Of a stretch of DNA of 23,285 bases, positions 4,988-23,285 are shown piece after piece; position 1 is the stretch's first letter; every line of letters starts with the position of its first letter. The stretch covers positions 1 through 23,285 of the IMG/VR virus record IMGVR_UViG_3300020034_000182; one strand, given 5' to 3'. Under the pieces are notes generated by a model that worked only from the letters and a program-made list of their open reading frames with translations, ran no database searches and was not told where the DNA came from. The stretch comes from a virus. A program made the position numbers and the translations under genes.

Positions 4988-4990
4988 ATG

Positions 4991-5557
4991 ATGGCGAAGG
5001 GAACCCTTCAGATACCGTTGACGGGACGTCAGCACTTTGTCGTGACCGGTGGCCCGTTTCGCGAGTGCCCGGACACGATGTGGGGCGTCAAAATGGCGGC
5101 GGAAATCGAGAAGCCCTGCGCGGTCGATATCCCGACGCGAGACTTTCACGTGCCGGATCGGCTCCTCCTGTATCGCGGGCTCGAAAAGGCCGTCGATCTG
5201 GTGCTGGCCGGTGATCCGATCTACGTCGGCTGCATGGGGGGCATCGGCCGCACGGGGCTGTTCCTCGCTATCCTCGCCAAGGCGTTTGGAGTGAAGCAGC
5301 CGGTCAAATTCGTGCGGGCGGGCTACTATGCTCACGCGGTGGAGACCCCCGAGCAGCAGACGTATGTGAAGGCGTTCAAGGTCAACCCGCGTGTCCGGGC
5401 GAAGATCAAGCAGGCGCGGCGACAGGCTAGGTGGTATTTCTGGACCCCGGTGTTCTGGAAGTCGAACCTCACGCGGCTGCCGGAGGAGAAGGTCATCACC
5501 CGCGAGAACCACGACGATCCGATTGACGGGGTGATTGAGCAGCTCGAACGGTCGTAG
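4991..5557 (+). CDS. Protein tyrosine/dual-specificity phosphatase-like protein 1
   Basis: 188 residues. Two ATGs lie side by side (4988, 4991); 4991 has better spacing from GGAG. YVGCMGGIGRTG gives the Cys-x5-Arg phosphatase loop with nucleophile Cys81 and Arg87, followed by the usual helix. An upstream Asp (in AVDIPTRDFHVPD) may act as general acid. The enzyme class removes phosphate from Tyr, Ser/Thr or small molecules through a phosphocysteine intermediate. The C-terminal 70 residues are basic (KIKQARRQARWYF) and could bind nucleic acid or membrane. A second, divergent copy lies at 6700, and both sit near the phosphohistidine protein at 2329. Driven by P3. The substrate is unknown. Confidence 0.82.
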   Translation: MAKGTLQIPLTGRQHFVVTGGPFRECPDTMWGVKMAAEIEKPCAVDIPTRDFHVPDRLLLYRGLEKAVDLVLAGDPIYVGCMGGIGRTGLFLAILAKAFGVKQPVKFVRAGYYAHAVETPEQQTYVKAFKVNPRVRAKIKQARRQARWYFWTPVFWKSNLTRLPEEKVITRENHDDPIDGVIEQLERS

Positions 5558-5623: not shown

Positions 5624-6700
5624 ATGAAGTATCTTCCGTCCAACACGCTTGCGCACTTCAACGCGGCTCCACAGGTCCAGCGGCTGGATGTGTCCCTGTT
5701 GCCGACGTCCGTCTTCAGTGCCGCAACCGTGAAGTATCGGGAGTCGTGCGGGCAGACGTTGCCCAATGATGACGCCATCACGTTCTATGCGCTGAACCAT
5801 GTCGCGTCGCTGGTGCGGAAGTCCTTCACGTCGAATGAGCCCTTGCCCGACTGGGCACAGCACATTATGGCGGAATACACGACCGCCACGATGGCGCAGG
5901 GGAAGCGGATGCTCCACTACATTCTGAGCATCACGACTCGCGAGATGCGCCACCTTCGCGCGCCCCACACGTCGGTGACGGCGTGGAAGGCGATTGAGAA
6001 GGCCGGTGGGCAGGCGATGGTGGACTTCATCAAGGACGTGGCCAGTAACGGCGACGAAGAGACGGCGGTCGGCAAATACATGCACTATCCGCCACAGGTG
6101 GGGGTCGGGGCCTTCACGGCGGGCTTGGCTGCCGCGTTTCGGAAGGGCAGCTTTGCGGGCAGCTTTGGGGGCATCCCGTGGGCGGAGGTCGCGGAGGCGC
6201 TCTCCAGCATGGTGCATGGCACGACGTCGATGGAGATGCTGGTGGATACTGGGTATACGCTGGCCCATAACAACGGCCCCATCTTCAACAAGGGGATGAT
6301 GTATCTGCATCACACCCCGCTGTTGCTCATGATTCTGGATGTGCAGCGGTCGGGTCAGATGCCTGACTTGCTGTTGGACCCGGCGACGCCGCCCAACATC
6401 AACAAGGTGGGCGCGGCCATTAACGGCATCCACCTGATTCAAAATGTCCGGCCCGGTGAGTTCAAGGGCTGGGTGGACTGGCATCTCGTGGATGCGATGC
6501 GTCCGGAGGCCGAGAAGAAGCTGGACCCGTCGAAGTATGCGCAGCAGATGGCCGCACAGCTCAAGGCGCATCCGACGCTGACTCCGGCCGTGCTGAAGAA
6601 GGTCACGAAGTTCATCGGAGGCAAGAAGGTCAAGGTCACTGGGACGTGGGAAGTGTTCCCCGGCCAATCCGTCGAGACATACGAAAGGATCGGTGCGTGA
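5624..6700 (+). CDS. Conserved phage protein of unknown function, 358 residues
   Basis: Starts at ATG 5624 behind promoter P4 and a perfect leader box; it ends in a TGATG overlap with the phosphatase at 6700, so the two are co-translated. The protein looks mostly helical, with a Gly/Ala-rich patch around residues 160-190 and the string HNNGPIFNKGMMYLHHTPLLLMILDVQRSGQ around 220-245, which I recall only from uncharacterised phage proteins. There is no signal peptide, no clear transmembrane span and no nucleotide-binding motif. The clustered His residues (HNNG, LHHT) could bind metal, but this is speculative. Coupling to the phosphatase suggests a functional link. Confidence 0.8.
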   Translation: MKYLPSNTLAHFNAAPQVQRLDVSLLPTSVFSAATVKYRESCGQTLPNDDAITFYALNHVASLVRKSFTSNEPLPDWAQHIMAEYTTATMAQGKRMLHYILSITTREMRHLRAPHTSVTAWKAIEKAGGQAMVDFIKDVASNGDEETAVGKYMHYPPQVGVGAFTAGLAAAFRKGSFAGSFGGIPWAEVAEALSSMVHGTTSMEMLVDTGYTLAHNNGPIFNKGMMYLHHTPLLLMILDVQRSGQMPDLLLDPATPPNINKVGAAINGIHLIQNVRPGEFKGWVDWHLVDAMRPEAEKKLDPSKYAQQMAAQLKAHPTLTPAVLKKVTKFIGGKKVKVTGTWEVFPGQSVETYERIGA

Positions 6701-7455
6701 TGGGAACATGGGATCACAAGTTTCCGAGTAAGGGGGGTGGGTCGGCCAAGCCTGCGAAGGATCTGTTCGAGGGCACCACGATGGCGCTGCCCCGGTGCTA
6801 CGAATCGCATCCGGTGCTGAAGTTCGGGAAGGGGACACTCATTGGCGGGAGTGCCTCCTACCCGAAGTATCGGGCGGACGTCTACGTGAGCCTCCAGTCG
6901 GGGAGCACGAGCGGGCGACAGTCCGACCCGTGGGAAGCGGATCAGAAGGTGCGTGAAGTCTTCTTCGCCATCAGCGATATGGCGGCACCGAAGGACGCCG
7001 AGCGATTCAAGAAGCTGATCGACTACGTGTGCAATCAATTGCACGAGGGCAAGACCGTCCACGTCGGCTGTATCGGAGGCCACGGCCGGACGGGGGTGGT
7101 GCTCTCGGCGGTGGTGGCACAGCTGAAGAAGGAAAAGAATGCCATCCAGTGGGTGCGGAAGCACTACTGTGAGAAGGCGGTGGAGTCCCGCGAGCAAGTG
7201 AAGTTCCTGATGGACCACTACGGGGTCTCCAAGGTGGAGGGCCACAAAGAGGGGGCGCTCGGGAGTGGTACCCTGTTCGGGTCGAAAGGGCTCGGGGGTG
7301 GGATCGTGTCCAAGGCGCTGGCCTACGGGGCGAAGCTGACGCACGCCGAGGAGTTGGTCACGACCATCATTCGGCCCGCGAAGGCGACCGATGCGACGAA
7401 GACGTTCAAGCCGATGGCGTCGGCTCGGAGTCTGTGGAAACCGCCAACGCCTTGA
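6700..7455 (+). CDS. Protein tyrosine/dual-specificity phosphatase-like protein 2
   Basis: 251 residues from ATG 6700, which shares its A with the preceding TGA and has AAAGGA upstream; in-frame codons back to 6646 belong to the previous gene in another frame. VHVGCIGGHGRTG is a complete Cys-x5-Arg loop with Cys124 and Arg130. A preceding segment (ADVYVSLQSG, SDPWEA) may carry the general acid. The C-terminal 60 residues are Gly-rich and low in complexity. It is a paralogue or functional partner of the phosphatase at 4991, sharing the rare GCxGGxGRTG form of the loop. The stop TGA is embedded in the TTGACA of promoter P5. The substrate is unknown. Confidence 0.82.
   Translation: MGTWDHKFPSKGGGSAKPAKDLFEGTTMALPRCYESHPVLKFGKGTLIGGSASYPKYRADVYVSLQSGSTSGRQSDPWEADQKVREVFFAISDMAAPKDAERFKKLIDYVCNQLHEGKTVHVGCIGGHGRTGVVLSAVVAQLKKEKNAIQWVRKHYCEKAVESREQVKFLMDHYGVSKVEGHKEGALGSGTLFGSKGLGGGIVSKALAYGAKLTHAEELVTTIIRPAKATDATKTFKPMASARSLWKPPTP
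7030..7043 (+). repeat. Dispersed 14-bp near-palindrome, copy 3
   Basis: TGCAATCAATTGCA, exact consensus, inside the second phosphatase gene, starting at a first codon position (so it encodes CNQLH rather than the peptides at copies 1 and 2). Confidence 0.85.
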
Positions 7456-7518: not shown

Positions 7519-8613
7519 ATGGCGTTCAAAGTGAATCCTGAAGCACAGGCCGTCTTCTTCGAGAAGGTCTTCGGGGTCAGTCACCCGATTACCAACAAGG
7601 TGAAGTCCCTTGTGGCGGTGGGGCTCACCTTCGAGACGCAGCTCTACGCCTGCATCGCGAAGGACAAGACCGGCGACACGCATACCACCCACACGACCAT
7701 TGGCACCACGGCGCTGATCAAGGGCACGGCGAATCCGCTCATGCTGGTGGCCAACAAGGCGACCATTGCGGAGTGGGTGAACGGGCTGTATCAGAAGTTC
7801 GGCTTTGCGGTGCCGGGATCGGAGACGAAGCCGCCTTTTCCGCCCACGGTGAAGAATATTTACGAGCCGAAGACGGGGCAGCCGAAGTCGCATTTCATCG
7901 CGCAGCCGACGTCGGTGCTGAACGCACCCGGCACCACGCTCGATGCGGTGGTGGCGGTGAAGGTGGTGACCATCAGTGGCAACTTGCTGCTCGCCATCAA
8001 GGCGGTGCGGGAAATCACGAGCTGGGGCCTGAAGGATGCGAAGACGTTCGTGGATGCCGTGAAGTTGGGGAGTCCGAAGTATCTCCCGCACATGTCGGCG
8101 ACGGAAGCGATTGAAGCGGTCGCCAAGCTGGCCAGCGTGGGGGTGACGGCGCAAACCGAAGTGCCGAATGAACTCCCCAATGAACTCACGCAGACCACGG
8201 CCCCGTGGATCAATGCGCCAAAGGTGGCCATTCCGGGGCTGAAGAAGCCGCTCGCTAAGGTGGTGCCGCTCCGTGAGGCACAGGCGCTCGGCCAGAAGGT
8301 GAACGGCACGAGCACGGGCTCGGTCTACTACTGCGTGGCCATCAGTGAGTATGTGAAGCTGGCCGCACGCATTCTCAAAGGGGGTTCCATCTCCATCCGA
8401 GCGGAGTGGATCGACAAGACTCCGGCCGCGCAGGCGGAATTGGTGGCGCTGGCGGAGTCCGGGCTCCAGATCAAGGGCACCTACGGCTCTCTGCACCTGA
8501 ACGCGCAGGGGGTTCCGGCCGCACGGGTCATCGGGGCCTTCGTGCTCGGGACGGGGATTAAGTGGTCTGAGATTGTCACCAGCGGGGCGGACTTGAAAGT
8601 AGAGGGGGCCTAA
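7519..8613 (+). CDS. Phage protein with a ribosomal protein L7/L12 C-terminal-like domain
   Basis: 364 residues behind P5 and a leader box. Residues about 138-215 read like the C-terminal domain of ribosomal stalk protein bL12: LLLAIKAVREITSWGLKDAKTFVD aligns with the bL12 pattern (V-I-K-x-VR-x-x-T-G-LGLKEAKxLVE), followed by an acidic/Ala helix (SATEAIEAVAKLASVGVTAQTE). Ile160, Lys161, Arg164 and the Lys of LKDAK match residues that contact translation GTPases in bL12. The N-terminal 130 residues and C-terminal 145 residues are unrelated to bL12. By family knowledge this domain recruits EF-Tu, EF-G and IF2; the phage protein could recruit or sequester such factors (inference). The 8613 stop overlaps the next start (TAATG). 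Confidence 0.75.
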   Translation: MAFKVNPEAQAVFFEKVFGVSHPITNKVKSLVAVGLTFETQLYACIAKDKTGDTHTTHTTIGTTALIKGTANPLMLVANKATIAEWVNGLYQKFGFAVPGSETKPPFPPTVKNIYEPKTGQPKSHFIAQPTSVLNAPGTTLDAVVAVKVVTISGNLLLAIKAVREITSWGLKDAKTFVDAVKLGSPKYLPHMSATEAIEAVAKLASVGVTAQTEVPNELPNELTQTTAPWINAPKVAIPGLKKPLAKVVPLREAQALGQKVNGTSTGSVYYCVAISEYVKLAARILKGGSISIRAEWIDKTPAAQAELVALAESGLQIKGTYGSLHLNAQGVPAARVIGAFVLGTGIKWSEIVTSGADLKVEGA

Positions 8614-9283: not shown

Positions 9284-11653
9284 GTGATTGCGATTTGGAC
9301 CACGTGTGCCCCGAAGAAAGCCCTGTTCAATCTCTCGCCAGTCTTACGTTCGGTGCCGGATTTGCCCATCGCGGTGGTGAATGACTACTCGGTGCCAGAG
9401 GGCACGACCACCATCCTCGCGTTGGGGGCGCATGCGCTCCGGAGGTTACAAGATGAGAAACTCATAGCCAAGAACCGCACGACCACCAGTTACCGGACCC
9501 TTCCGCTGAATCGGGCGGGGGTGCCGGTGCTGGTGAGTTACAGCCCCGAGATTGGGGAAATCGATCACAGCTACTACGTCGATCTGCTGACCGACGTGAG
9601 CCTCGCGGTACGGCATGCGCTGACGGGGAAGTGGGTGCCGAAGTACGGGACATACCATTACCGGCCGCACTTTGCGGGCCTGATTGCGTCCATTAAGGCC
9701 CAACACGCGGAGACCGGGCAACCGGTCGATGTCTCCGCCGACACTGAGACGCTCGGGCTCGACCCCTACGCCCAGCCGATGCACTTCCCCCCGTTCCCCG
9801 GTGCCTACCTCGTCACCATCCAAGCGACGCATCTCAACGGCACCGCCGACGTCGTGCGGTTCCACGACCGGATGCACGAGCAGCAGTGGTTGAGCGATCC
9901 GGAGTACCGGGCACAGCTGGAATTCCTCCTAACCTGTCCCTACATCAAACTGCGGGGGGCGGACTTCAAGTACGACCAGCATTGGCTGTGGGTGCGGGCG
10001 AAGCTGCGGTGTACCAACTTCGCGCTCGACACCACCATCGTGGGCTCGCTGCTCGATGAGAACCGCAGCAACTCGATGGACGTCCACACCAAAATCTATG
10101 TGCCGGGGATGGCGGGCTACAGCGACCGGTTCGATGCGGAGGTGAACAAGAGTCGCATGGATCAAGTCCCGCCCGAGCAGCTGTTGCCCTACGCCGGGGG
10201 TGACGTCGATGCGAATCTGCAAGTCGCGGCGGTGATGAAGAAGGAGCTGGTGGCGGACTCCCGGCTCGCCGGACTCTACGTCCACATCCTCCGCCCTGCC
10301 AGTCAGGCGTTCGCCGAGCTGGAGCAAGGCGGCATGGTGGTGGATAAGGGGGCGTATGAGGAGCTGAAGGCCGACCTGATGACCGAGCACGTGCGGCTCG
10401 TGAAGGACGCCTGCAAAATCATGGGCGGGCGCATCGTCGCGAAGCACGGCAACCTCCAGCGGCCGGGGGGCATGAACCTGACGAAGGCGTCCATGCTCTG
10501 TGACTTCATGTTCAGTCCGATGGGGCTCAATCTGAAGCCGAAGATGTTCACCGAGAAGCCGGACAAGGACGGCATCAAGCGGCCAAGCACGGCGCAAGAG
10601 CATTTGGAGATGTTCTCGGACGTGCCGGAAGCGAAAGCCTTCATCGCCATCATCAAGGAAGACGGCTCCGTGATGAAGACGTACAACACCTACGTCGTGG
10701 GCTTCCTCGAACATCTGCGCTCGGACGGGCGCTTCCATCCCACGTACTTCCTCTTTGTCGGCAATCAAGCCCATGGCGACGGTGGCGCGCGCACCGGCCG
10801 ACTCTCGTGTAAGGCTCCGGCGTTCCAGACCATCCCGAAGCATACGAAGTGGGCGAAGCGCATTCGGCGCTGCTTCCCTGCTCCTCCCGGCTACGTGCTG
10901 GTGGAGCGAGACTACAGCCAAGGGGAGCTGCGGGTGATCGCCTGCATCGCCAACGAGACCAACATGATCGCCGCCTACAAGGCGGGGCTCGACCTCCACA
11001 TCAAGACGGCGGCACGGTTCTCCGGACACACCTACGAGAGCCTGAAGGCACTGGAGCTGACCGACGAGTACACGTTCAGCGAGACTCGGCAGCTGGGGAA
11101 GGCGGGGAACTTCGGGCTCGTCTTCGGCATGATGGAAGACGGGTTCATCGTCTACGCGAAGCAGAACTACGGGGTGGACCTGACGTGGGATGAGGCCCAC
11201 ACCTTCCGCGAAGGCTACTTTCAAGACTATCCGATGCTGCCGGTTTACCACGTCCAGTACAAGCAGTTCGCACGGGAGCATGGGCATGTCAGGACGCCGC
11301 TGGGGCGCATCCGCCATCTCCCCCTCATCCGGAGTCCCAACAAGGCGTTCGTCTCACAGGCGGAGCGGCAGGCCATCAACAGCCCGGTGCAGGGCACCCT
11401 GACGGACCTGACGCTGTGGACCATCGCGCTGGAGCATCAGGCGGGATTGCACTCAATTGCACCGTGCTTCGGAGCCTGCCATGATTCCGCCTACAACTAT
11501 TGCCCTGAAGATAAGGTAGACGTTTTAGTGCCGCAAATGCTGGATATCATGCAAAATTTGCCGTTTGAAAAAGTCAATTGGCAGCCTCAATTGCAATTTG
11601 TGGCTGACGCCAAAGTCGGCCCTAATATGGCCGATCTTAAAGCGTTCAAATGA
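9284..11653 (+). CDS. DNA polymerase, family A, with 3'-5' proofreading exonuclease
   Basis: 789 residues from GTG 9284, with AGGAG eight bases upstream. Residues 1-125 form an extra N-terminal region with a uracil-DNA-glycosylase-fold look (TTILALGAHALRRL, VPVLVSYSPE). The exonuclease domain has Asp153/Glu155 (SADTET), FKYDQHWLW and Tyr303/Asp307 (YAGGD). The polymerase domain has motif A (ERDYSQGELR, Asp543), motif B (RQLGKAGNFGLVFG; Arg602, Lys606, Phe610, Phe614) and motif C CHDSAY (His733-Asp734-Ser735). Motif B keeps Phe at the position of E. coli Phe762 but has Phe in place of Tyr766. No 5' nuclease domain. The last ~55 codons are markedly AT-richer than the rest (about 44% GC by hand count against about 67% near motif A), joining smoothly to the HNH gene. 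It replicates the phage genome. Confidence 0.95.
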   Translation: MIAIWTTCAPKKALFNLSPVLRSVPDLPIAVVNDYSVPEGTTTILALGAHALRRLQDEKLIAKNRTTTSYRTLPLNRAGVPVLVSYSPEIGEIDHSYYVDLLTDVSLAVRHALTGKWVPKYGTYHYRPHFAGLIASIKAQHAETGQPVDVSADTETLGLDPYAQPMHFPPFPGAYLVTIQATHLNGTADVVRFHDRMHEQQWLSDPEYRAQLEFLLTCPYIKLRGADFKYDQHWLWVRAKLRCTNFALDTTIVGSLLDENRSNSMDVHTKIYVPGMAGYSDRFDAEVNKSRMDQVPPEQLLPYAGGDVDANLQVAAVMKKELVADSRLAGLYVHILRPASQAFAELEQGGMVVDKGAYEELKADLMTEHVRLVKDACKIMGGRIVAKHGNLQRPGGMNLTKASMLCDFMFSPMGLNLKPKMFTEKPDKDGIKRPSTAQEHLEMFSDVPEAKAFIAIIKEDGSVMKTYNTYVVGFLEHLRSDGRFHPTYFLFVGNQAHGDGGARTGRLSCKAPAFQTIPKHTKWAKRIRRCFPAPPGYVLVERDYSQGELRVIACIANETNMIAAYKAGLDLHIKTAARFSGHTYESLKALELTDEYTFSETRQLGKAGNFGLVFGMMEDGFIVYAKQNYGVDLTWDEAHTFREGYFQDYPMLPVYHVQYKQFAREHGHVRTPLGRIRHLPLIRSPNKAFVSQAERQAINSPVQGTLTDLTLWTIALEHQAGLHSIAPCFGACHDSAYNYCPEDKVDVLVPQMLDIMQNLPFEKVNWQPQLQFVADAKVGPNMADLKAFK
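11448..11461 (+). repeat. Dispersed 14-bp near-palindrome, copy 4
   Basis: TGCACTCAATTGCA (C variant, identical to copy 1 through the following CC), inside the polymerase gene just before motif C, starting at a second codon position. A weaker 10/14 match lies at 11582-11595. Confidence 0.8.
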
Positions 11654-11945
11654 CTGGTAAACGCCACGGCCATTGGGGGACTCGAACTTATTGGGCTTGG
11701 GCCAACATGATCCAGAGAGCAACGAATCCAAATATACCCCAAGCAAAAGACTATTCAACACGGGGCATAACCGTGTGTGGGCGTTGGCGGCAGTTTCAAA
11801 ATTTCTTGGTAGATATGGGGGAGTGCCCAGAGGGATTGACGCTTGAACGATTGAATAATGACGGTAGTTACGAGCCCTCTAATTGTAAGTGGGCTACTCG
11901 AAGAGAACAATCTGCAAACAGACGTGTCAGTAATTGGGAGGGGAT
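11485..11945 (+). mobile_element. AT-rich homing-endonuclease insert with polymerase 3' end
   Basis: GC content falls from about 67% (10741-10800) to about 44% (11521-11640) and 48% (11641-11940) by hand count, then returns to the phage norm after about 11950. The low-GC segment begins just after polymerase motif C and ends with the HNH gene. This is the pattern expected when a free-standing homing endonuclease is acquired together with a co-converted piece of the neighbouring target gene. The boundaries are approximate and no terminal repeats are expected or seen. Confidence 0.6.
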
Positions 11946-11949
11946 ATGA
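11650..11949 (+). CDS. Free-standing HNH-type homing endonuclease-like protein
   Basis: 99 residues; ATG 11650 overlaps the polymerase TGA. The layout HGHWGTRTYWAWANMIQR, YSTRGITVCGRW, NFLVDMGECPEGLTLERLNN and SYEPSNCKWATRREQSANRR is that of small phage HNH (His-Me finger) endonucleases, whose core is the RGI.VC.RW...F..DMG.P.G..L.R.....Y.P.NC.W pattern. These enzymes nick or cut a conserved site, often in polymerase or terminase genes, and spread by repair. Codons are AT-rich (TTA, AGA, AAA), unlike the flanks, which supports recent arrival. No group I intron or intein was seen around it, and the polymerase frame is intact. Confidence 0.85.
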   Translation: MTGKRHGHWGTRTYWAWANMIQRATNPNIPQAKDYSTRGITVCGRWRQFQNFLVDMGECPEGLTLERLNNDGSYEPSNCKWATRREQSANRRVSNWEGI

Positions 11950-12209
11950 ATGGTGAAGAGCGGGAACGGTATCGGAAAGCCGCGTGCCGGAAGAGTGGCG
12001 GCACCACGGATATGACCTCGACGGTCCATCCGACGCTCGATGATGAAGCCGCCTTCGTGCAGGTGTCCATCTACGTGACGCAGGCGGAGGCCGACGCGGA
12101 GCTGACCTTCCAGCCGGAGGATCGCACGCCACAATCCCAGCGCGAAGGAGACCATCTGTCGGGGGTCGGTATCCAGACGGCAGCGGACGCGTTTCCAAAA
12201 CGCCCTTGA
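11946..12209 (+). CDS. Small acidic hypothetical protein, 87 residues
   Basis: ATG 11946 forms an ATGA overlap with the HNH stop and has GGAGG four bases upstream. The N-terminus is basic (ERERYRKAACRKSG) and the remainder acidic, with an alternating hydrophobic stretch (AAFVQVSIYVTQAEADAELTF) that suggests a beta-rich core. No known motif. Base composition returns to the phage norm within it. Its TGA (12207-12209) lies inside the TTGACA of promoter P6. Confidence 0.65.
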   Translation: MNGEERERYRKAACRKSGGTTDMTSTVHPTLDDEAAFVQVSIYVTQAEADAELTFQPEDRTPQSQREGDHLSGVGIQTAADAFPKRP

Positions 12210-12234
12210 CAAACTCTTAGAGCTAGACTATACT
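12206..12234 (+). promoter_or_regulatory. Sigma-70 promoter P6
   Basis: TTGACA at 12206-12211, 17-bp spacer, TATACT at 12229-12234; near consensus. It overlaps the upstream stop codon as P5 does and drives the long small-gene operon to 16417. Confidence 0.87.
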
Positions 12235-12252
12235 CACCGCAGTCGTCTCTCT

Positions 12253-12264
12253 TCAATGGAGTGA
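12253..12264 (+). promoter_or_regulatory. Conserved leader box and RBS (TCAATGGAGTGA)
   Basis: Exact leader box, three bases before ATG 12268; GGAG is the Shine-Dalgarno. Confidence 0.75.
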
Positions 12265-12267
12265 AGC

Positions 12268-12474
12268 ATGGACCCAATGGTTTTCAAGCTCTTGCCAATG
12301 ACGCCCGCTGCGTTGTGGCAGCAAGCCTTTCTGACCGCGCTCGCTAAGACGGGGTGTGGCACGGGCGGAGCTGCGTTTGCGGCGGATGAAGCCGTGAAGG
12401 AATATCTCGCGCGCTACACGCTTCGAGATGGTCCGAGCGGACCCCTCGATGACCGTGAGAAGGCGTCCCGATGA
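12268..12474 (+). CDS. Small hypothetical protein, first gene of the P6 operon
   Basis: 68 residues from ATG 12268 behind a perfect leader box. Ala-rich helical protein (TPAALWQQAFLTALAKTG, FAADEAVKEYLARYTL) without a membrane span or catalytic motif. The TGA overlaps the next ATG (ATGA). The function is not recognised. Confidence 0.75.
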   Translation: MDPMVFKLLPMTPAALWQQAFLTALAKTGCGTGGAAFAADEAVKEYLARYTLRDGPSGPLDDREKASR

Positions 12475-12635
12475 CCCGGTGGACCAAGGCTGATGCCGGT
12501 CGTCTGACAGAGATTCAGACCTTGCTGGAGAAAGCGGGTCAGAATCGCTCTGATGAAGTGCGGGCCGCGCTGCTCTCGACGGCACACGAGAAGTTGGCAC
12601 ATCTTGTTACCTCGTTGTGGACACGGGAGTTCTAA
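12471..12635 (+). CDS. Small helical hypothetical protein, 54 residues
   Basis: ATG 12471 overlaps the preceding TGA, and its TAA shares an A with the next ATG (TAATG). The product (MTRWTKADAGRLTEIQ...SLWTREF) is predicted mostly helical with heptad-like hydrophobics. No motif. Reality is supported by position between two coupled genes and by codon use like its neighbours. Confidence 0.68.
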   Translation: MTRWTKADAGRLTEIQTLLEKAGQNRSDEVRAALLSTAHEKLAHLVTSLWTREF

Positions 12636-12868
12636 TGATCAGTCATAACACCGAGGAGAAGTTGCTGACCGCTGCGCAGGTAGGGTTGGCGATCCTGCCC
12701 ATCGTGTTCTTCGTGGTGATGGGCGTCAAAGCTGCGCGTCTAGACGCAGACTGTCTGAGAGCCGGATATCCTAACTCGAAGATGACGTGGAACCTCGAAG
12801 GCTACTGCGTGAAGCGCGTGGATCAGACCGACACGGTGGTGCCGATTGACACGGTGAGGGGACGATGA
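12635..12868 (+). CDS. Small single-span membrane protein, 77 residues
   Basis: ATG 12635 at a TAATG junction is preferred over TTG 12617 in the same frame. Residues 12-35 (LTAAQVGLAILPIVFFVVMGVKAA) form one transmembrane helix; the C-terminal ~40 residues hold two Cys (ADCLRAGYPN, GYCVKR) that could form a disulfide if periplasmic. Topology N-in/C-out would place them outside. I recall similar C..GYP...YC small phage membrane proteins without a known role. Host-envelope action or superinfection exclusion are possibilities only. Confidence 0.72.
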   Translation: MISHNTEEKLLTAAQVGLAILPIVFFVVMGVKAARLDADCLRAGYPNSKMTWNLEGYCVKRVDQTDTVVPIDTVRGR

Positions 12869-14658
12869 ATCTCAACGAACACATCGAAACGCCAGAAGGT
12901 CCGCTCGCCGTCGTCTTCGCGCTGGTTGCTCCGATGCTGGAGCTGGGCATCATCACCCAAGAGACTCCCGAGGGAGTGTATCGCGCGACGTCCAAGGCCG
13001 TGGTCGAAGACTGGATCAAGGCCCATGGTATGTGCGACTTCTGCACGGACACCAATCCCATCGCCACCATCCCGGTGCCGGACTTCGACATGCCGGTGGG
13101 CCGGAGCACGGGTGGCTGGGCGGTCTGTGAAGTCTGCTACGACTTGGTGAAGGGGTATCGGCGCGCGGACTTGCTGAAGCGGTCACAAGAGTTGCTGTTG
13201 GGCGGACGCTTTTCACAGGCGGCGGTGCGGACGCTGCACCAGAAGTTCTGGACCGCCTTCGAGAACATGTCCAAGGCGGCAGGCTCCGCGTCGGCGCTGA
13301 AGGACTTCATCAACGACGAATTGCCCGACATCCCGGCCGGGAAACTCATTGGTGACAAGGCGAAGCGGCGCGAAACCATTCGGCGCATGATCGGCCTGTC
13401 ACTCGATGAAATCGAGCAGATGGAGAAGGGGGATATCGCCTACAAGGATGTGGCGAAGAAGCTCACCGAGTGGAAGAAGAAGTTCGGCGTCAATGACGAG
13501 AACAACGTCCGGCTGATGACCGAGCTGTTGGCGGGCGAGCCCGTCATGCAGCCGGGGCACATCCCACACTGGCAGCGGGCTATCGACCTGAAGCTCGATG
13601 CCATGAAGGAAGTGCAGACAGCCCTGAAGCAGGGGCAGTCGGTCTGGGCGTTTGAAGATTCGACGGACGTGACCGATATGGAAGCCCTCCGGGCACGGTC
13701 TAAGCGTGTGGAGACTCTGAGCCGCCTGCGGGCCATGGGCTTCAACATGGACATGGCCCAGCTGAAGCGCGCAGAGGTGTTCTCCTTCAACGCGGAGACC
13801 ATGCACGCGATCCGGACGGCGGCGGCGCACATCCCGCACGAGTCCCCCTTGTCGTCGGTGGAAGTGCCGAAGGTGGCGGGGGGCTGGTATTACTTTGCGG
13901 AGCCCTTCCCCGTCGCGTCGAGTCCAGCCTCCTCCGATACTACGGCGGCGATGATGTGGGGCTGGGTGACGGATGATACGCAGAATGCCAAGGCCCACGA
14001 GGGGGAGACCACGACGGTCCCCCGGACCATTAGTGGGGAGCCGGTGCTCCGCCTGACCGCATGGGTGGTGGGGGATAAAGACGAGAGTCAGTATCGCAAT
14101 CGGTGTCTGCCGTCCACGAAATGGTACTGGCCGGTGTCGATGTCGTTCCACGAGATGATCGCGTTCAACGTCGCGAGCTATCGGGAGCAGTATGGGCCGG
14201 GAGGGGCGGGTGAGCACGAGGTGGGCTTAATCAACGAAGAGCACACCATCCGGGCCATCTCGGAGCTGAGTCTGTTTTTCCTGATGTCGTGCGTGTGGTT
14301 CAAGCAGAAGGTGATTGTGGAGGCGGCGGGTCACATCGAGCGGCACGCGCGCAAGCGGATTCAAAAAGAGCACAAGCTGGCGGACTTCCCGACGATTCGT
14401 GTGATCGCCCTCCGGAAAGCGGTGCGACCGGCCGTGGATCTGCCGGAAGGGGTGCCGAGGGAGAAGCGCGAAGGTCACAAGCTCACGGTGCAGTTCATCG
14501 TCGGCGCAGAGAAGGGGGGCTTCCCCCGGCTGCAAGTCTGTGGACCGGGACGTGTGGATCGGAAGTTGATCTGGGTCTACCCGTTCCCGAAGGGACCGAA
14601 GGGGGCTCCATGGAAGACCACGAAGGAGACGACGACCGTCTACGCGGTGGTGCGATGA
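12865..14658 (+). CDS. Large conserved phage protein with CxxC-CxxC finger and AcrVA2-like C-terminal region
   Basis: 597 residues, ATG 12865 overlapping the previous TGA. Cys57, Cys60, Cys88 and Cys91 (MCDFC...CEVCYD) make a zinc-finger-like site after a short N-terminal domain. A long helical middle (residues 100-290) is followed by an alpha/beta region. The C-terminal part (residues 490-597: RKRIQKEHKLADFPTIRV, then KLIWVYPFPKGPKGAPW) resembles a module common in phage proteins (W-I-x-PY-x-KGP-x-x-x-P) that, from memory, is annotated AcrVA2-like in some databases. AcrVA2 lowers Cas12a levels by attacking its mRNA. The resemblance is only a lead and was not checked by alignment. Centre of the P6 operon. 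Confidence 0.8.
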   Translation: MNLNEHIETPEGPLAVVFALVAPMLELGIITQETPEGVYRATSKAVVEDWIKAHGMCDFCTDTNPIATIPVPDFDMPVGRSTGGWAVCEVCYDLVKGYRRADLLKRSQELLLGGRFSQAAVRTLHQKFWTAFENMSKAAGSASALKDFINDELPDIPAGKLIGDKAKRRETIRRMIGLSLDEIEQMEKGDIAYKDVAKKLTEWKKKFGVNDENNVRLMTELLAGEPVMQPGHIPHWQRAIDLKLDAMKEVQTALKQGQSVWAFEDSTDVTDMEALRARSKRVETLSRLRAMGFNMDMAQLKRAEVFSFNAETMHAIRTAAAHIPHESPLSSVEVPKVAGGWYYFAEPFPVASSPASSDTTAAMMWGWVTDDTQNAKAHEGETTTVPRTISGEPVLRLTAWVVGDKDESQYRNRCLPSTKWYWPVSMSFHEMIAFNVASYREQYGPGGAGEHEVGLINEEHTIRAISELSLFFLMSCVWFKQKVIVEAAGHIERHARKRIQKEHKLADFPTIRVIALRKAVRPAVDLPEGVPREKREGHKLTVQFIVGAEKGGFPRLQVCGPGRVDRKLIWVYPFPKGPKGAPWKTTKETTTVYAVVR

Positions 14659-18147: not shown

Positions 18148-18250
18148 GTCTGAACGTAAGGGCACTTCACGATTGCAATTGATTGCATAACCCGTGTAAG
18201 CTGAAAGGAGTTTACGACAACCGCCATATTTGCCAATCTCATAGGTGCCC
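18148..18250 (+). promoter_or_regulatory. Late-module control region upstream of portal
   Basis: This 103-bp gap holds one inverted 14-bp repeat (18174-18187) and an AAAGGAG at about 18203-18209 that is too far from the portal start to serve it. There is no TTGACAAA-type promoter or TCAATGGAGTGA box, unlike all upstream operons. A weak candidate promoter (TTGCAA 18173-18178, 16 bp, TGTAAG 18195-18200) overlaps the repeat. The repeat may act here as an operator or activator site, which is inference. Confidence 0.35.
18174..18187 (-). repeat. Dispersed 14-bp near-palindrome, copy 6 (inverted)
   Basis: TGCAATTGATTGCA, the exact reverse complement of the consensus. The only copy outside a gene and the first in inverted orientation. 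Confidence 0.85.
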
Positions 18251-20131
18251 ATGCTGACATTGAAGGGGGATACCCCGACGCTGCCCATTAAAGTGGTCAA
18301 GGGGGAAGTCGTCAAGGCGGAGCCGAAGATTACCTTCATCCAGAAGGTGATTAAATCGGAGACGTTTTTGGTGATGGCGCACTCCGCCGTGGAGTTGGAA
18401 GACGAGTTCTCCAATCTCTATTACACAGCGGCGAATCAATCCAACCTTTTTCTCCAGCCCCCGTTCGAGCCTAACGTCCTGATGAACATGGTCCAGACGA
18501 ACAACGTCTTGAACCAGTGCGTCGAAGCGATGGAGGTGAACATCGACGGCACCGGCCATGAGTTCGTGCCTGCGGAAGAGGGGAAGACCATCGACAAGAC
18601 GGAGGAGAAGGCGGCGCTGGCGTTCTTCAAGGAGCCCTATCCCAATGTGTCGATGACCGCCATCCGCCGCAAGCTGCGTCGGCAGATGGAGTCGGTCGGC
18701 TACGCGTGGATCGAAGTGCTCCGCAATATGGCGGACGAAGTGGTGGGCATCCGCAACGTGGAGACTGCGCACATCCGGATGGTGAAGCTCGATGCGCCCA
18801 TTCAGGTGAAGAAGAAGATCATGCGGGGGGACACCGAAGTCGAGCTGACGCTGTGGGAACGAGAGCGTCGCTACGCGCAGCGGGTCGCCCTGAAGCAGCT
18901 GGTGTACTACCGGGAGTTCGGCACCACGCGGCAGGTGAATCGCGACACCGGGGAGTGGGAGACGCCGGAGAAGGCGGTGCCCGCTGAATCCAGAGGGACG
19001 GAACTGCTCTGTCTCGGCATCCATCCGGACACCGCCACCCCGTACTACCTCCCCCGGTGGATCAACCAGCTTCCCAGCGTCGTTGGATCGCGCAACGCGG
19101 AAGAGCAGAACCTCCAATTTCTCGATGCCGGGGGACTCCCACCCGCCATTGTGTTCATTCAGGGAGGCACGCTGGTGAAGGACACGTCCGACCAGCTGCG
19201 GATGTACCTGTCGGGGTTGAACAAGAACAAGAACCGGGCGGTGGTGGTTGAGGTTCAGTCGTCGTCCGGTTCGCTGGATTCGGCCGGGAAGGTGGATGTG
19301 AAGGTGGAGCGGTTCGGCTCCGCGCAATCACAGGACGCCATGTACATGAAGTACGACGTCTCCACCGAGGAGCATGTGCGGGTGGGCTTCCGGCTGCCCC
19401 CGCTCTTCTTGGGCAAGGCGCAGGACTACAACTTTGCGACGGCGCAGACCGCCTACATGGTGGCGGAAGCGCAGGTGTTCTTGCCCGAGCGCACCGAGTT
19501 CGATGAGATGCTCAACAAGACCATCATCAAGGAGCTGGGCTTCAAGACGCTGTTGTTCAAGTCGAAGCCCATCACCCTGAAGGACGTTGCTACACAGCTG
19601 AAGGGACTGGAGCTGTCGAAGGACGTCGTGACGCGCGAGAGCTACCTGAAGGAGCTGAACACGGTAGCCGGGATGGTGCTGGAGATTGCGGAACTGCCCG
19701 CACCCAACGTCGCCCCCGGAGGCGTCAAGCCCACGACGCAGAGTGTCGATGAGATTCCGGGTCACAAGCTGCCCGCGTCCATGAAGCCGCCAGCATTCAC
19801 CGCGCCACAGGATGATCCTGAGCCCGCACCGCCTGATTCGCATGTCATCCTGAAGCCGGGAGACAAGCTGGTGAAGAAGCCCCAGCTGAAGCTCGTGCCG
19901 AAGGAGCGGAAGTCTGCCATCGAGCTGATCGAGTTGGCGCAAGACTACGCCGCGAGTCAGGGGTTGATTCAGAAGCGGGACGTCTCCCCCGAGCGGCAGG
20001 TGATCACGGAGGAAGCGGTGCGTGGGCTGGATGAAGCCGAGCTACACGCGTTCAATCGGCTGATTGCCACGTACGCCTTCGGGGATGACGACCCCGACCT
20101 CGTGACGCTCGTGGCCAACACCCGTGGGTGA
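18251..20131 (+). CDS. Phage portal protein (PBSX-type family)
   Basis: 626 residues from ATG 18251 (weak AGGTG upstream); GTG 18245 in frame is the alternative. The string TPYYLPRWINQLPSVVGSRN followed by AEEQNLQFLDAGGLPPAI is the signature region of the PBSX/SPP1-like portal family (Phage_portal). ALDF-type N-terminal lead-in, stem and clip regions fit the usual 400-480 residue core. About 150 C-terminal residues are an extra, Pro- and Lys-rich extension (residues ~480-626) with a helical end (SAIELIELAQDYAASQG). The dodecameric portal is the DNA channel at one capsid vertex and docks the terminase. The stop overlaps the GTG of the giant downstream protein by eight bases, so the two are co-translated. 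Confidence 0.93.
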   Translation: MLTLKGDTPTLPIKVVKGEVVKAEPKITFIQKVIKSETFLVMAHSAVELEDEFSNLYYTAANQSNLFLQPPFEPNVLMNMVQTNNVLNQCVEAMEVNIDGTGHEFVPAEEGKTIDKTEEKAALAFFKEPYPNVSMTAIRRKLRRQMESVGYAWIEVLRNMADEVVGIRNVETAHIRMVKLDAPIQVKKKIMRGDTEVELTLWERERRYAQRVALKQLVYYREFGTTRQVNRDTGEWETPEKAVPAESRGTELLCLGIHPDTATPYYLPRWINQLPSVVGSRNAEEQNLQFLDAGGLPPAIVFIQGGTLVKDTSDQLRMYLSGLNKNKNRAVVVEVQSSSGSLDSAGKVDVKVERFGSAQSQDAMYMKYDVSTEEHVRVGFRLPPLFLGKAQDYNFATAQTAYMVAEAQVFLPERTEFDEMLNKTIIKELGFKTLLFKSKPITLKDVATQLKGLELSKDVVTRESYLKELNTVAGMVLEIAELPAPNVAPGGVKPTTQSVDEIPGHKLPASMKPPAFTAPQDDPEPAPPDSHVILKPGDKLVKKPQLKLVPKERKSAIELIELAQDYAASQGLIQKRDVSPERQVITEEAVRGLDEAELHAFNRLIATYAFGDDDPDLVTLVANTRG

Positions 20132-23100
20132 GACGCTCGACTTTCGGACGTATCTTACACTGGAGCAGGCGCTCAGTCGGAAATTGGTCCGACACTGGCG
20201 AAAGCTCTCGGCGGGGACGTATGCCGCCATCGCGGAGGCGTGCGCCAAAGGACAATGGAATGTGGCTCGTGATCGGGTTGCTGATCTGGACATGGCTGAA
20301 GTCGGTACAGAGAACCGGGAGTGGATTAAGTATCTGCTCCTCTCGACGGCGACCTATGGGGCGGGCATGGTGGCGCGAGATCGACCGTCTTTTGTCGGAG
20401 TAGGGACGTTCGATACGCTGTTGAACCAAGTCACCAGCAATCTCTTGCAGTATTTGGAGTTCGACGGCACCCGGCAGGTGCAAGCCGAAGCGTTGCAATT
20501 GATTGCCGAGGATGAGGCGAAGACCAAAGCGGCCCAACTCGTGCAGAAGAAGGAGCACGCGTTCGGGAACACCCAGATCGCCATTGACCCGAAAAGCAGC
20601 GCAGCCGCCACGATACTGGCATCACGCGAGCGGATCGCGGAAGACGACCTTGCGGGCGACGGCATCGAAGAGGACATGCACGTCACCGTTCGGTACGGAT
20701 TGACGGATGACGACCATGATCGGCTCCGGGTGTTCATCGCGAGTTTGCAACCATTCGAGGCCCGCGTGGGGGAGTTGGAAATCTTCCCCGCGAGTGAGCA
20801 CAGCGACGGCGCGTGCCCCATCGTGGCGCGCATCATCAGTCAGGAATTGCGGGCCATCGAGCAGGCCATCGGTGACTACGCCGCGTTCAAGGAGAAGTCG
20901 TTTCCGGACTACAAGCCGCATTGTACGTTGGCATACGTGAAGGTGGCGGCGGCGCAGAAGTACGCCGACCTTTACGTGGACGGCTCCTTCATCGTGCGGA
21001 GCATCACGATTAGTCACCAGTCCGGCGTGATGGAGACCATCCCGTTCGGCATGGTGAAGAAGTTCGATGAGGCACAGCACCCACGGGATGCGACTGGGAA
21101 GTTCACCGCGTCCGGGGGTGTGACGGGTCTGCGCTCGGTGTTGAACGACCTCTTGAAGCCAGACGGCGGCTTCACTTATTCGCTGACCACGCGCACGTCG
21201 CCGACTGATGGTTTCTCCCTGTCGCTCCACAAAGACCGGGAGAAGGTGCTGGACGTGAAGACGCTCACGCTGATGGATCTGGACGCCTTCGCCAAGGCCA
21301 ACTCGGATCTGTTGCGGCAGTCTGGCAACTACTTTGGGGCATGGCACAACCCGGAGGACGGCAAGGTCTATCTCGACATCTCCACCGTGGTGCCGGAGGC
21401 GGCGGAAGCCCAGCGACTTGGCAAGCTCCACGACCAGATTGCGTATTTCGATCTTGCCCATTTCACGTCGGTGCCGGTGCAGAAGCAGGAGTCTTATGGA
21501 GAAGAAGAAACCGACGCTCCACTTAGTGGGGTCGAAGGAGGGGGAACCCTCCGTGGACGATTTAATCGCTTTATACAAAGCATTGACTGGACGCGATCCT
21601 TCACCGGAGGAAATCGCGGAGGTGTGGAAGAGACGCTCGCGCAAAAGTTAGAAGGCGGCGGCAATCCTTACCACGACAAGCTCGGGCTGTTCACCAGTAA
21701 AGATGGCAGCTCCGGCGTGGGTCTGGTTCGCGTCGGCACCGCATGGCAGCGCACGGACGGCACCTCGCTCTCGGCTGCCGACAAGGCGCGCGTCGCGGCG
21801 CTCAAAATCCCTCCCGCGTGGACGTCGGTGCGGCTGAACCCCAACCCCGATGAACCCATGCAGGCGTTCGGGAAGGATGCGAAGGGACGCACGCAGTACC
21901 GCTATTCCGACACGTCAAAATCTCAGAACGCCGCCAAGAAGTTTGTGCGGCTCAAAGCCTTCACTGCCTCTCTCCCTGCGATTCGTGCGGGCATTGCGGA
22001 CGGCATCAGCCGGGGCATCGACGCCGCATATGTGCTCCGGCTGATCGACAAGAGTGCCTTTCGGATCGGAGGGACGGAGGATACCGGCGCAGAGAAGCAA
22101 GCCTACGGCGCGAGCACGCTCCTGAACAAGCATGTGAAGGTGGCGGGCGATATCGTGACGTTGACGTTCTCCTTCACCGGGAAGAAGGGCGTCCATATCC
22201 GGAAGACCATCAAGGATGCGGAGCTGGCCGACTACATCCGGACGCGGCAGGAGACGTTGAAGCCGAGTGATCGGATCTTCACCTCGAACGTGGAGCAGGT
22301 GCGGAGCTTCCTCCATGACCACGGGGGGCCGGGGCTCCACCCGAAGGACTTCCGCACGCACCACGGCACCGCTATCGCGCTCGATGAAATCGCGAAGTCG
22401 CCTGTGCCGAAGACCGCGAAGGCCGCGAAGGCGCTTCGTCTGAAGATTGCCACGAAGGTGGCCGCGTATCTCGTCAACACCCCGGCCGTCGCCCTGAGTG
22501 CCTACATCAGCCCGGAAGTCTTCAAGACGTGGGGCGCGTTGCAGGTGGCGCAGAAGCACGACGACCAGTTGGATCTGTTCGACGTGTTGATCAAAGAGTT
22601 TCTAGAGACCCACTCCTATGTCGATGAGGATGTGGACTGGCACGAGGACGATGATGAACCCGCTAAAAAATTCAACCAATACCACGACACCCACACCGGA
22701 CAATTCACCAGCCGAGACGCTTCACCCGCGCAAGCCGGTGATCTTAACGGAGGAGGACGAATTGCTGTATCGGAGGCCCCCGAAGGGGCACACCCCACAG
22801 GGCAGCCCTTCGTCACCGACACCAAAGGACGACCCGCCGCCAACCTAACGATTCAGGTGGAGGCCAACGCGTATAACGCGACGCACGGGCTCCCTTCGGT
22901 GGACCATTCGCAGTACATTGCGGTGGATCAGACGCGAGCGGGGCGCATCGCGGATGCGTATGACGCGCTTCCGATGGATGACAGTGCGAACCCCGAGGTA
23001 CGCCGATCCTACGAAGCGTTAGCGCGTGAGGTGAACGACCAGTGGGATGCCGCCGTGGCGCACGGGATGGTGTTCGAGCCGGAGACGTCCAGCACGGATG

Positions 23101-23285
23101 CGGCGGACAAAGGCCCGTATCAATCCTCCTTCGATGTGACGGCGGACATTCGGGATCACCGGCACCTGTTCTTTTATACAGGGGGTGATCCGAATCAATT
23201 CATGGCGCAGATTGATGCTAAGACCGGGATCAGCATCAATGACAAGTTCCGCGCCATCCATGATTACTACGGACATGCCGCTGGG
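20124..23285 (+). CDS. Giant polyvalent head-associated protein: 2H phosphoesterase, conserved domains, topoisomerase IB (3' end outside window)
   Basis: One frame stays open from GTG 20124 (eight-base overlap with the portal stop) to the right edge, 1054 codons. Order: 1-175 helical, MuF-like head-associated region; ~184-310 2H phosphoesterase with HVT (His186) and HCT (His266); 314-332 motif FDEAQHPRDATGKFTASGG; 333-456 conserved phage domain (YLDIS...HDQIAYFDL); linker; 511-530 motif GNPYHDKLGLFTSKDG; ~531-820 topoisomerase IB with Arg647, Lys687, Arg744, Asn785 and Tyr794 (NTPAVALSAYI), spaced as in bacterial TopIB; 850-868 motif FNQYHDTHTGQFTSRD; ~905-1054 a domain with VDHSQYIAVD and NDKFRAIHDYYGHA, seen in many phages. 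The 2H class cleaves cyclic or 2'-5' nucleotides; TopIB relaxes supercoils through a 3'-phosphotyrosine. Co-injection with DNA is inferred. Confidence 0.88.
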   Translation, partial: MGETLDFRTYLTLEQALSRKLVRHWRKLSAGTYAAIAEACAKGQWNVARDRVADLDMAEVGTENREWIKYLLLSTATYGAGMVARDRPSFVGVGTFDTLLNQVTSNLLQYLEFDGTRQVQAEALQLIAEDEAKTKAAQLVQKKEHAFGNTQIAIDPKSSAAATILASRERIAEDDLAGDGIEEDMHVTVRYGLTDDDHDRLRVFIASLQPFEARVGELEIFPASEHSDGACPIVARIISQELRAIEQAIGDYAAFKEKSFPDYKPHCTLAYVKVAAAQKYADLYVDGSFIVRSITISHQSGVMETIPFGMVKKFDEAQHPRDATGKFTASGGVTGLRSVLNDLLKPDGGFTYSLTTRTSPTDGFSLSLHKDREKVLDVKTLTLMDLDAFAKANSDLLRQSGNYFGAWHNPEDGKVYLDISTVVPEAAEAQRLGKLHDQIAYFDLAHFTSVPVQKQESYGEEETDAPLSGVEGGGTLRGRFNRFIQSIDWTRSFTGGNRGGVEETLAQKLEGGGNPYHDKLGLFTSKDGSSGVGLVRVGTAWQRTDGTSLSAADKARVAALKIPPAWTSVRLNPNPDEPMQAFGKDAKGRTQYRYSDTSKSQNAAKKFVRLKAFTASLPAIRAGIADGISRGIDAAYVLRLIDKSAFRIGGTEDTGAEKQAYGASTLLNKHVKVAGDIVTLTFSFTGKKGVHIRKTIKDAELADYIRTRQETLKPSDRIFTSNVEQVRSFLHDHGGPGLHPKDFRTHHGTAIALDEIAKSPVPKTAKAAKALRLKIATKVAAYLVNTPAVALSAYISPEVFKTWGALQVAQKHDDQLDLFDVLIKEFLETHSYVDEDVDWHEDDDEPAKKFNQYHDTHTGQFTSRDASPAQAGDLNGGGRIAVSEAPEGAHPTGQPFVTDTKGRPAANLTIQVEANAYNATHGLPSVDHSQYIAVDQTRAGRIADAYDALPMDDSANPEVRRSYEALAREVNDQWDAAVAHGMVFEPETSSTDAADKGPYQSSFDVTADIRDHRHLFFYTGGDPNQFMAQIDAKTGISINDKFRAIHDYYGHAAG
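20494..20507 (-). repeat. Dispersed 14-bp near-palindrome, copy 7 (inverted, one mismatch)
   Basis: TGCAATTGATTGCC, reverse-complement orientation, 13 of 14 bases, inside the giant gene, starting at a second codon position (encodes LQLIA). 2320 bp after copy 6. Confidence 0.75.
21496..21651 (+). CDS. Overprinted small ORF, 51 residues, nested in the giant gene
   Basis: ATG 21496 has AGGAG five bases upstream and runs to TAG 21649-21651 in a different frame from the giant protein. The product (MEKKKPTLHLVGSKEG, then VDDLIALYKALTGRDPSPEE and IAEVWKRR) looks like a normal small helical protein. The giant protein's frame is Gly/Arg-rich linker here, with codons such as GGA and CGA that are rare elsewhere, so this frame may be the better-selected one. 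Either a real overlapping gene or the relic of separate genes that became fused. Confidence 0.5.
   Translation: MEKKKPTLHLVGSKEGEPSVDDLIALYKALTGRDPSPEEIAEVWKRRSRKS
22651..22848 (+). CDS. Overprinted small ORF, 65 residues, nested in the giant gene
   Basis: Two ATGs (22651, 22654) preceded by GAGGA; ends at TAA 22846-22848, in the same alternative frame as the ORF at 21496. The product is Thr/Pro-rich with a central ordered-looking stretch (RKPVILTEEDELLYRRPPKG). It again coincides with the linker and motif between two domains of the giant protein. The Pro-rich composition may simply mirror the linker in the other frame, so support is weaker than for 21496. Confidence 0.35.
   Translation: MMNPLKNSTNTTTPTPDNSPAETLHPRKPVILTEEDELLYRRPPKGHTPQGSPSSPTPKDDPPPT

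Follow-up and report, generated by a model that had tools for sequence, protein, structure and literature searches.

Why would a phage encode a topoisomerase IB (TopIB) together with other enzymes in one frame behind its portal gene, and where would such a protein act? The question is raised by the IMG/VR virus record IMGVR_UViG_3300020034_000182, whose whole 23,285-base sequence (the window) was analysed here. A giant open reading frame (ORF) at 20124-23285 on the plus strand has 1054 codons without a stop and runs off the end of the contig. It starts with a GTG at 20124 within the last codons of the portal gene (18245..20131, +; 628 residues; phrog_12 portal, 4.5e-18; 64% identity to the portal of the related locus L020), and the two ORFs overlap by 8 nucleotides. 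This start is supported because the protein of another relative, L057, begins at the same residue; it is homologous to the window protein from residue 1, with 66% identity over window residues 1-333. The modules follow in the order head region (residues 1-145), 2H phosphoesterase, linker 1, phage domain (333-456), degenerate linker 2, TopIB, linker 3 and a polyvalent-protein domain truncated by the contig end. The original prediction of a single open frame of at least 1054 codons directly behind the portal is borne out. Hidden stops or frameshifts that might split it were also considered: the sequence itself has no stop or break, and a codon signal in the +1 frame appears in two linkers, as described below.

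The TopIB domain spans residues 541-807 (21744..22544, +). It matches the TopIB core family PF01028 at 3.3e-21 (76.2 bits; cut-off 23.7) and the N-terminal family Top1B_N_bact, PF21338, at 4.9e-10 (39.4 bits; cut-off 27), and the D. radiodurans TopIB (2F4Q) matches it at 1.1e-32. The AlphaFold model of the domain had a predicted local distance difference test score (pLDDT) of 84.5. Its best Foldseek matches were 2f4q (7e-15) and 3m4a (1e-14), and variola TopIB was matched with a template-modelling score (TM) of 0.77. The full catalytic pentad is present as R647, K687, R744, N785 and Y794, so that the TopIB with all five catalytic positions claimed from the bare sequence is confirmed by profiles, residues and predicted fold. 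We also considered a tyrosine recombinase or telomere resolvase; the TopIB-specific N-terminal domain and the Foldseek ranking, with TopIBs far above integrases, led us to reject both. By domain content, catalytic residues and fold this is a TopIB of the bacterial type, and it presumably relaxes DNA.

Scans with one protein as the query, either the whole ORF or its TopIB, gave no match, and profile scans were needed to find relatives. An alignment based on jumbo-phage enzymes was too divergent to serve as a search query. A first profile, built from the window domain together with TopIBs of bacterial plasmids, gave 35 viral loci; a second, built from the phage members, found at least 129 IMG/VR contigs, of which 80 were retained. 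The catalytic R, K and R are identical in 89 of 89 alignable TopIB domains, the N is kept in 87 (one has H) and the Y in 88. In 78 of 91 distinct ORFs no more than 25 residues follow the TopIB. Genes for portal, terminase and head morphogenesis are among those lying upstream of the short versions. One relative, L144, is in a Gammaproteobacteria metagenome-assembled genome (MAG) from a bog, a hint at one possible group of hosts.

Pfam domains were assigned to a set of 55 long ORFs (the window protein and 54 relatives). Portal domains were Phage_portal_3 in 19, Portal_Mu in two, the lambda-type portal in two and the PF04860 portal in one, and thus up to 24 of the 54 long relatives are portal fusions, spread over four Pfam portal families. 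Phage_Mu_F (PF04233) occurs in four of the long relatives, and other domains on long TopIB ORFs were Acb1/2H, InPase, NUDIX, GNAT, ART-PolyVal and DUF2213. In L057 and L020 the fusion from head region to TopIB is uninterrupted. The fusion of TopIB to portals of four families is a more surprising result than the window protein itself. It strengthens the earlier reading of a portal-coupled polyvalent protein, since fusions of TopIB to portal, MuF and portal-adjacent proteins recur in many other phages. Our literature search found no paper combining 'topoisomerase IB' with 'portal protein', nor one linking TopIB to ejection.

In a quick likelihood tree, a starred branch parts the phage TopIBs from 13 bacterial TopIBs. 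The separation of the phage enzymes as a clade from the sampled bacterial ones is a modest claim, because the bacterial sample is small (13) and the search profile was phage-based. The portal_3 label changes 10 times on this tree, at least 8 of them on starred branches, and therefore portal fusions were gained or lost repeatedly. Among distinct ORFs with the head domain (those with TopIB or complete), 4 of 13 carry TopIB; such facultative presence would be as expected of accessory cargo. As a separate observation, the 281-kb contig L080 encodes two unlike TopIBs, one belonging to the head-operon type, the other jumbo-phage-like (11299-12777, 5827-6786).

The modules are separated by a linker of 18 to 20 residues with the motif [FW]xE[SA]xHPRDxxG[KQR]F[TAG]xGG. 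Linker 1 is canonical (FDEAQHPRDATGKFTASGG, residues 314-332; 21063..21119, +), as judged from motif statistics and from the end of L057 homology at its last residue. Linker 2 is degenerate (NPYHDKLGLFTSKDGSS, residues 514-530; 21663..21713, +) and of the same class as the linkers before TopIB in L063 and L089. Linker 3 is also degenerate (FNQYHDTHTGQFTSRD, residues 850-865; 22671..22718, +). In the fetched loci 129 of 130 linker matches lie on the coding strand. F or W stands at position -5 in 79 of 82 linkers and E at -3 in 76 of 82; neither position was in the search pattern. In 71 of 91 ORFs a canonical or degenerate linker precedes TopIB, where residue shuffles gave 3.2 on average; the figure is descriptive only, because the classes were defined after looking at the same sequences. 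In short ORFs the linker lies about 20 to 60 residues from the N-terminus, and it recurs between modules in several giant ORFs.

A DNA-pattern scan for the linker, in which TopIB was not used, found at least 119 stretches, and 61 ORFs were examined. Head domains listed among these 61 were Phage_portal_3 (14), other portal families (6), MuF (3) and DUF2213 (4). The cargo listed comprised ADP-ribosyltransferase (ART) exoenzyme (8), NUDIX (8), TopIB (6), zeta toxin (4), InPase (2), RelA/SpoT (1) and PBECR1 (1). Linker-like stretches also occur in or beside portal genes of isolates, namely Faecalibacterium phage Brigit, Pseudomonas phage Orimi01, Gordonia phage Forza and Rhizobium phage RHph_N28_2, where BLAST is weak on its own (E 0.5-9). 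Between the window protein and L057, which has the order head region, 2H, linker and TopIB, homology ends at residue 333, just past linker 1, and is picked up again at 553, within TopIB. L020 shares head region and TopIB with the window protein and has a ParB-type module where the window has 2H. The homology break at linker 1 and this module swap therefore mark the linker as a seam of module exchange. We propose that the HPRD linker may be a tag by which injected phage proteins are loaded into the capsid or processed. We found no Pfam family that covers the motif; DUF7211 was tried and rejected as its identity, having matched one relative at another motif. That relative, L101, has this other short motif (YGVIGMKWGVHK; DUF7211 in Pfam) near residues 415-430 of its TopIB-bearing protein, and it may represent a sister class of head-protein tags.

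What precedes linker 1 can be divided into two parts. The helical head region (residues 1-145; 20124..20558, +) has homologues in 22 further viral loci, all with a window-type portal nearby, and in Stenotrophomonas phages, Summit and DLP_5 among them, the gene that follows the portal gene begins with a homologous stretch. AlphaFold predicted a plain helical bundle (pLDDT 75.7); a Pfam search with residues 1-145 gave no match at all, and comparison of the predicted fold with the PDB gave no significant one. This region had been taken for a MuF-type domain, a claim that we do not uphold. Neither the window protein nor its N-terminal region matched PF04233 at E values up to 10, and a MuF fold was rejected for lack of support from Pfam and fold comparison. 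Only the position of the gene, behind the portal, is MuF-like. The 2H domain (residues 181-283; 20664..20972, +) matched PF13563 at 2e-7 (31.6 bits, above the cut-off of 27) and has both HxT motifs, HVT186 and HCT266, as the original prediction had it; L057 also has this domain. The score with PF23474, the profile of Acb1, which acts against the cyclic oligonucleotide-based antiphage signalling system (CBASS), was 25.3 bits, below the cut-off of 27, and the domain was not assigned to that family.

The two phage domains noticed earlier were both recovered. In the first (residues 333-456; 21120..21491, +), residues 344-451 match gp34 of Synechococcus phage P60, annotated as an internal virion protein. 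The second (residues 909-1054; 22848..23285, +) is cut by the contig end, matches phrog_3170 at 2e-9 over residues 909-1053, and is common to cyanophage large polyvalent proteins, including the 'large polyvalent protein' of Planktothrix phage Pag-Yong1. With 2H, TopIB and these two domains the polypeptide holds at least two unrelated domains of effector type, subject to the +1-frame signal, and it is encoded with the portal gene, an arrangement repeated in its relatives. Domain content and gene order thus agree with the polyvalent-type modularity and portal-adjacent position that had been proposed.

Across almost all of the giant ORF the main frame scores best by codon usage; the exceptions are two inter-domain stretches, at about residues 458-509 and 844-908, where the +1 frame scores higher. 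Two small +1-frame ORFs lie there. One of 51 residues is nested in the linker region (21496-21651, +), is favoured by codon log-odds and is preceded by a good Shine-Dalgarno-like AGCAGGAG; the other, of 64 residues, lies over linker 3 (22654-22848, +) and is likewise favoured by the codon signal. Homologue searches with the first (MEKKKPTL...) gave no match, and it was rejected as a known gene. A strong frame switch is rare among the 60 ORFs compared, of which the window ranks third. In-frame GTG codons are found at 21624 and 22632, just ahead of linkers 2 and 3. There may be nested small genes, or paired compensating indels, in two linkers, without the main frame being broken.

Like the phage polyvalent proteins described by Iyer et al. 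2017 (PMC5512222), in which 2H domains are fused to MuF or portal domains, the window protein is multidomain, combines several kinds of enzyme and is encoded with portal-terminase genes, and its C-terminal domain is common to a protein annotated as large polyvalent protein. In that paper topoisomerase occurs once, in the reference list, and the main text describes neither a TopIB module nor portal fusions of TopIB nor the HPRD linker (the supplement was not searchable). Like the MuF-linked head proteins Mu gp30 and SPP1 gp7, the protein is encoded behind the portal and has enzymes fused C-terminally, and four TopIB relatives have PF04233; unlike them, it lacks a MuF match and starts with a helical domain of another kind. 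With the bacterial TopIBs (D. radiodurans, 2F4Q/3M4A) the window domain shares the fold, Top1B_N_bact and the R-K-R-N-Y set, but it is 31-36% identical to them, falls in the phage clade and is part of a head-operon polyprotein. The TopIBs of the jumbo phages Motura and Lu11 (PMC7824862) are also phage-encoded tyrosine topoisomerases I; in contrast, they are encoded by a separate gene of 540-670 residues, not beside the portal in the loci read, and their domain is 24-28% identical. Vaccinia TopIB works mainly in early transcription and is reported to be encapsidated (PMC12188299 and its references 72-73). It offers a functional precedent for TopIB in a virus particle, by analogy only; unlike the window protein it is a separate small enzyme of a eukaryotic virus without portal fusion.

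How, then, would the protein act? On balance we lean, somewhat beyond even chances, to a modular virion-packaged polyvalent protein that would bring TopIB in alongside the DNA and so set the topology of the genome as it enters. The architecture, the intact active sites, the recurrent portal/MuF linkage and the linker seam are read directly from the genes; packaging in the virion, cleavage or release, delivery with the DNA, the DNA target and relaxation of torsion would be steps of the proposed mechanism. The helical domain, encoded directly behind the portal gene, would anchor the protein at the portal or inner head. Enzyme modules would be strung behind this anchor with [FW]xE[SA]xHPRDxxG[KQ]F or its degenerate form between them, the linker perhaps being a capsid-loading or protease-release signal. 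TopIB would be a nicking-closing swivel: entering the cell together with the DNA, it would relieve the genome of torsion on arrival or just after circularisation, and early transcription or replication could then begin. The 2H module would probably remove 2'-5' or cyclic nucleotide alarm signals, or work on RNA ends. The presence of domain 333-456 in an annotated internal virion protein of P60 is consistent with such delivery. Several points weigh on the other side. Among 50,697 INPHARED records no isolate has this TopIB type, and the distant matches are mostly jumbo-phage enzymes; the anchoring of the head region is read solely from gene position, because that region has no known fold match; portal fusions would require a presumed cleavage for injection; and the +1 signal in two linkers leaves room for separate products, which may exist.

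Other places of action can be weighed on the same evidence. Portal C-termini point into the capsid lumen. A TopIB kept tethered there, to the lumen-facing side of the portal or of a portal-adjacent protein, could relax twist during packaging or exit, and direct C-terminal fusions to four families of portal, which recur across the TopIB tree (at least 8 starred portal_3 changes), would suit it. Yet most complete relatives of the window protein lack TopIB, and the same slot holds ART, NUDIX, zeta toxin and RelA/SpoT modules, for which a part in packaging is not obvious; we consider such a tethered enzyme improbable. That TopIB is facultative and shares its slot with injected-type effectors favours an accessory role once the DNA has been ejected over an obligatory packaging swivel. 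It is likewise doubtful that a topoisomerase is built into the portal vertex itself, as a TopIB ring at the DNA gate that swivels the genome in packaging and/or ejection and lets the particle control the topology of the delivered DNA. The slot shared with ADP-ribosyltransferases and other effector enzymes would also fit a delivered TopIB that acts on the host chromosome, by loss of supercoiling or nicking, and shuts off host transcription, much as other polyvalent effectors target the machinery of the host. We regard this as unlikely: relaxation by TopIB leaves no breaks and would affect phage DNA too, and the residues for religation are intact in all alignable copies.

Finally, TopIB might be no virion cargo at all and instead an ordinary intracellular enzyme of replication or transcription, the frame being a gene fusion or chance read-through with internal starts or frameshifts. 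The +1 coding signal in two linkers, the GTGs 21624 and 22632 before linkers 2 and 3, the many relatives with a separate TopIB ORF and N-terminal linker, and the intracellular TopIB of jumbo phages (PMC7824862) all speak for it. However, the 1054 codons have no stop, L057 and L020 are continuous head-region-to-TopIB fusions, and the direct portal-TopIB fusions of many other phages would be left unexplained, so that we give this explanation little chance. Delivery with the phage DNA is the reading that we prefer.

Other genes of the window were also noted. Two related genes at 4988-5557 and 6646-7455 match phrog_17568, labelled thymidylate synthase, but Pfam weakly matches them to a tyrosine/dual-specificity phosphatase (PTP-SAK). 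A 665-residue protein (2329-4326) has the ATP-binding and phosphoenolpyruvate (PEP)-utiliser mobile domains of pyruvate phosphate dikinase / PEP synthase and matches phrog_18609, kinase. The 364-residue phage protein at 7519-8613 has a ribosomal protein L7/L12 C-terminal domain (PF00542, 7e-7). At 12865-14658 a function-unassigned protein of 597 residues (phrog_15934) is 41% identical to an L020 gene likewise upstream of the portal. No terminase was recognised among the window ORFs scanned.

The class of phage TopIB-portal proteins would be a new form of polyvalent virion proteins, with putative biochemical and virion roles. Its occurrence suggests that the particles of some phages contain a DNA swivel of their own. 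The common linker that joins effectors to portal, MuF and related head proteins provides a sequence handle for injected proteins and capsid loading. Whether packaging or ejection twists phage DNA, and how a linear incoming genome gains the right topology for early transcription, are long-standing questions. The repeated fusion of TopIB to portals would make them directly testable through one catalytic tyrosine.

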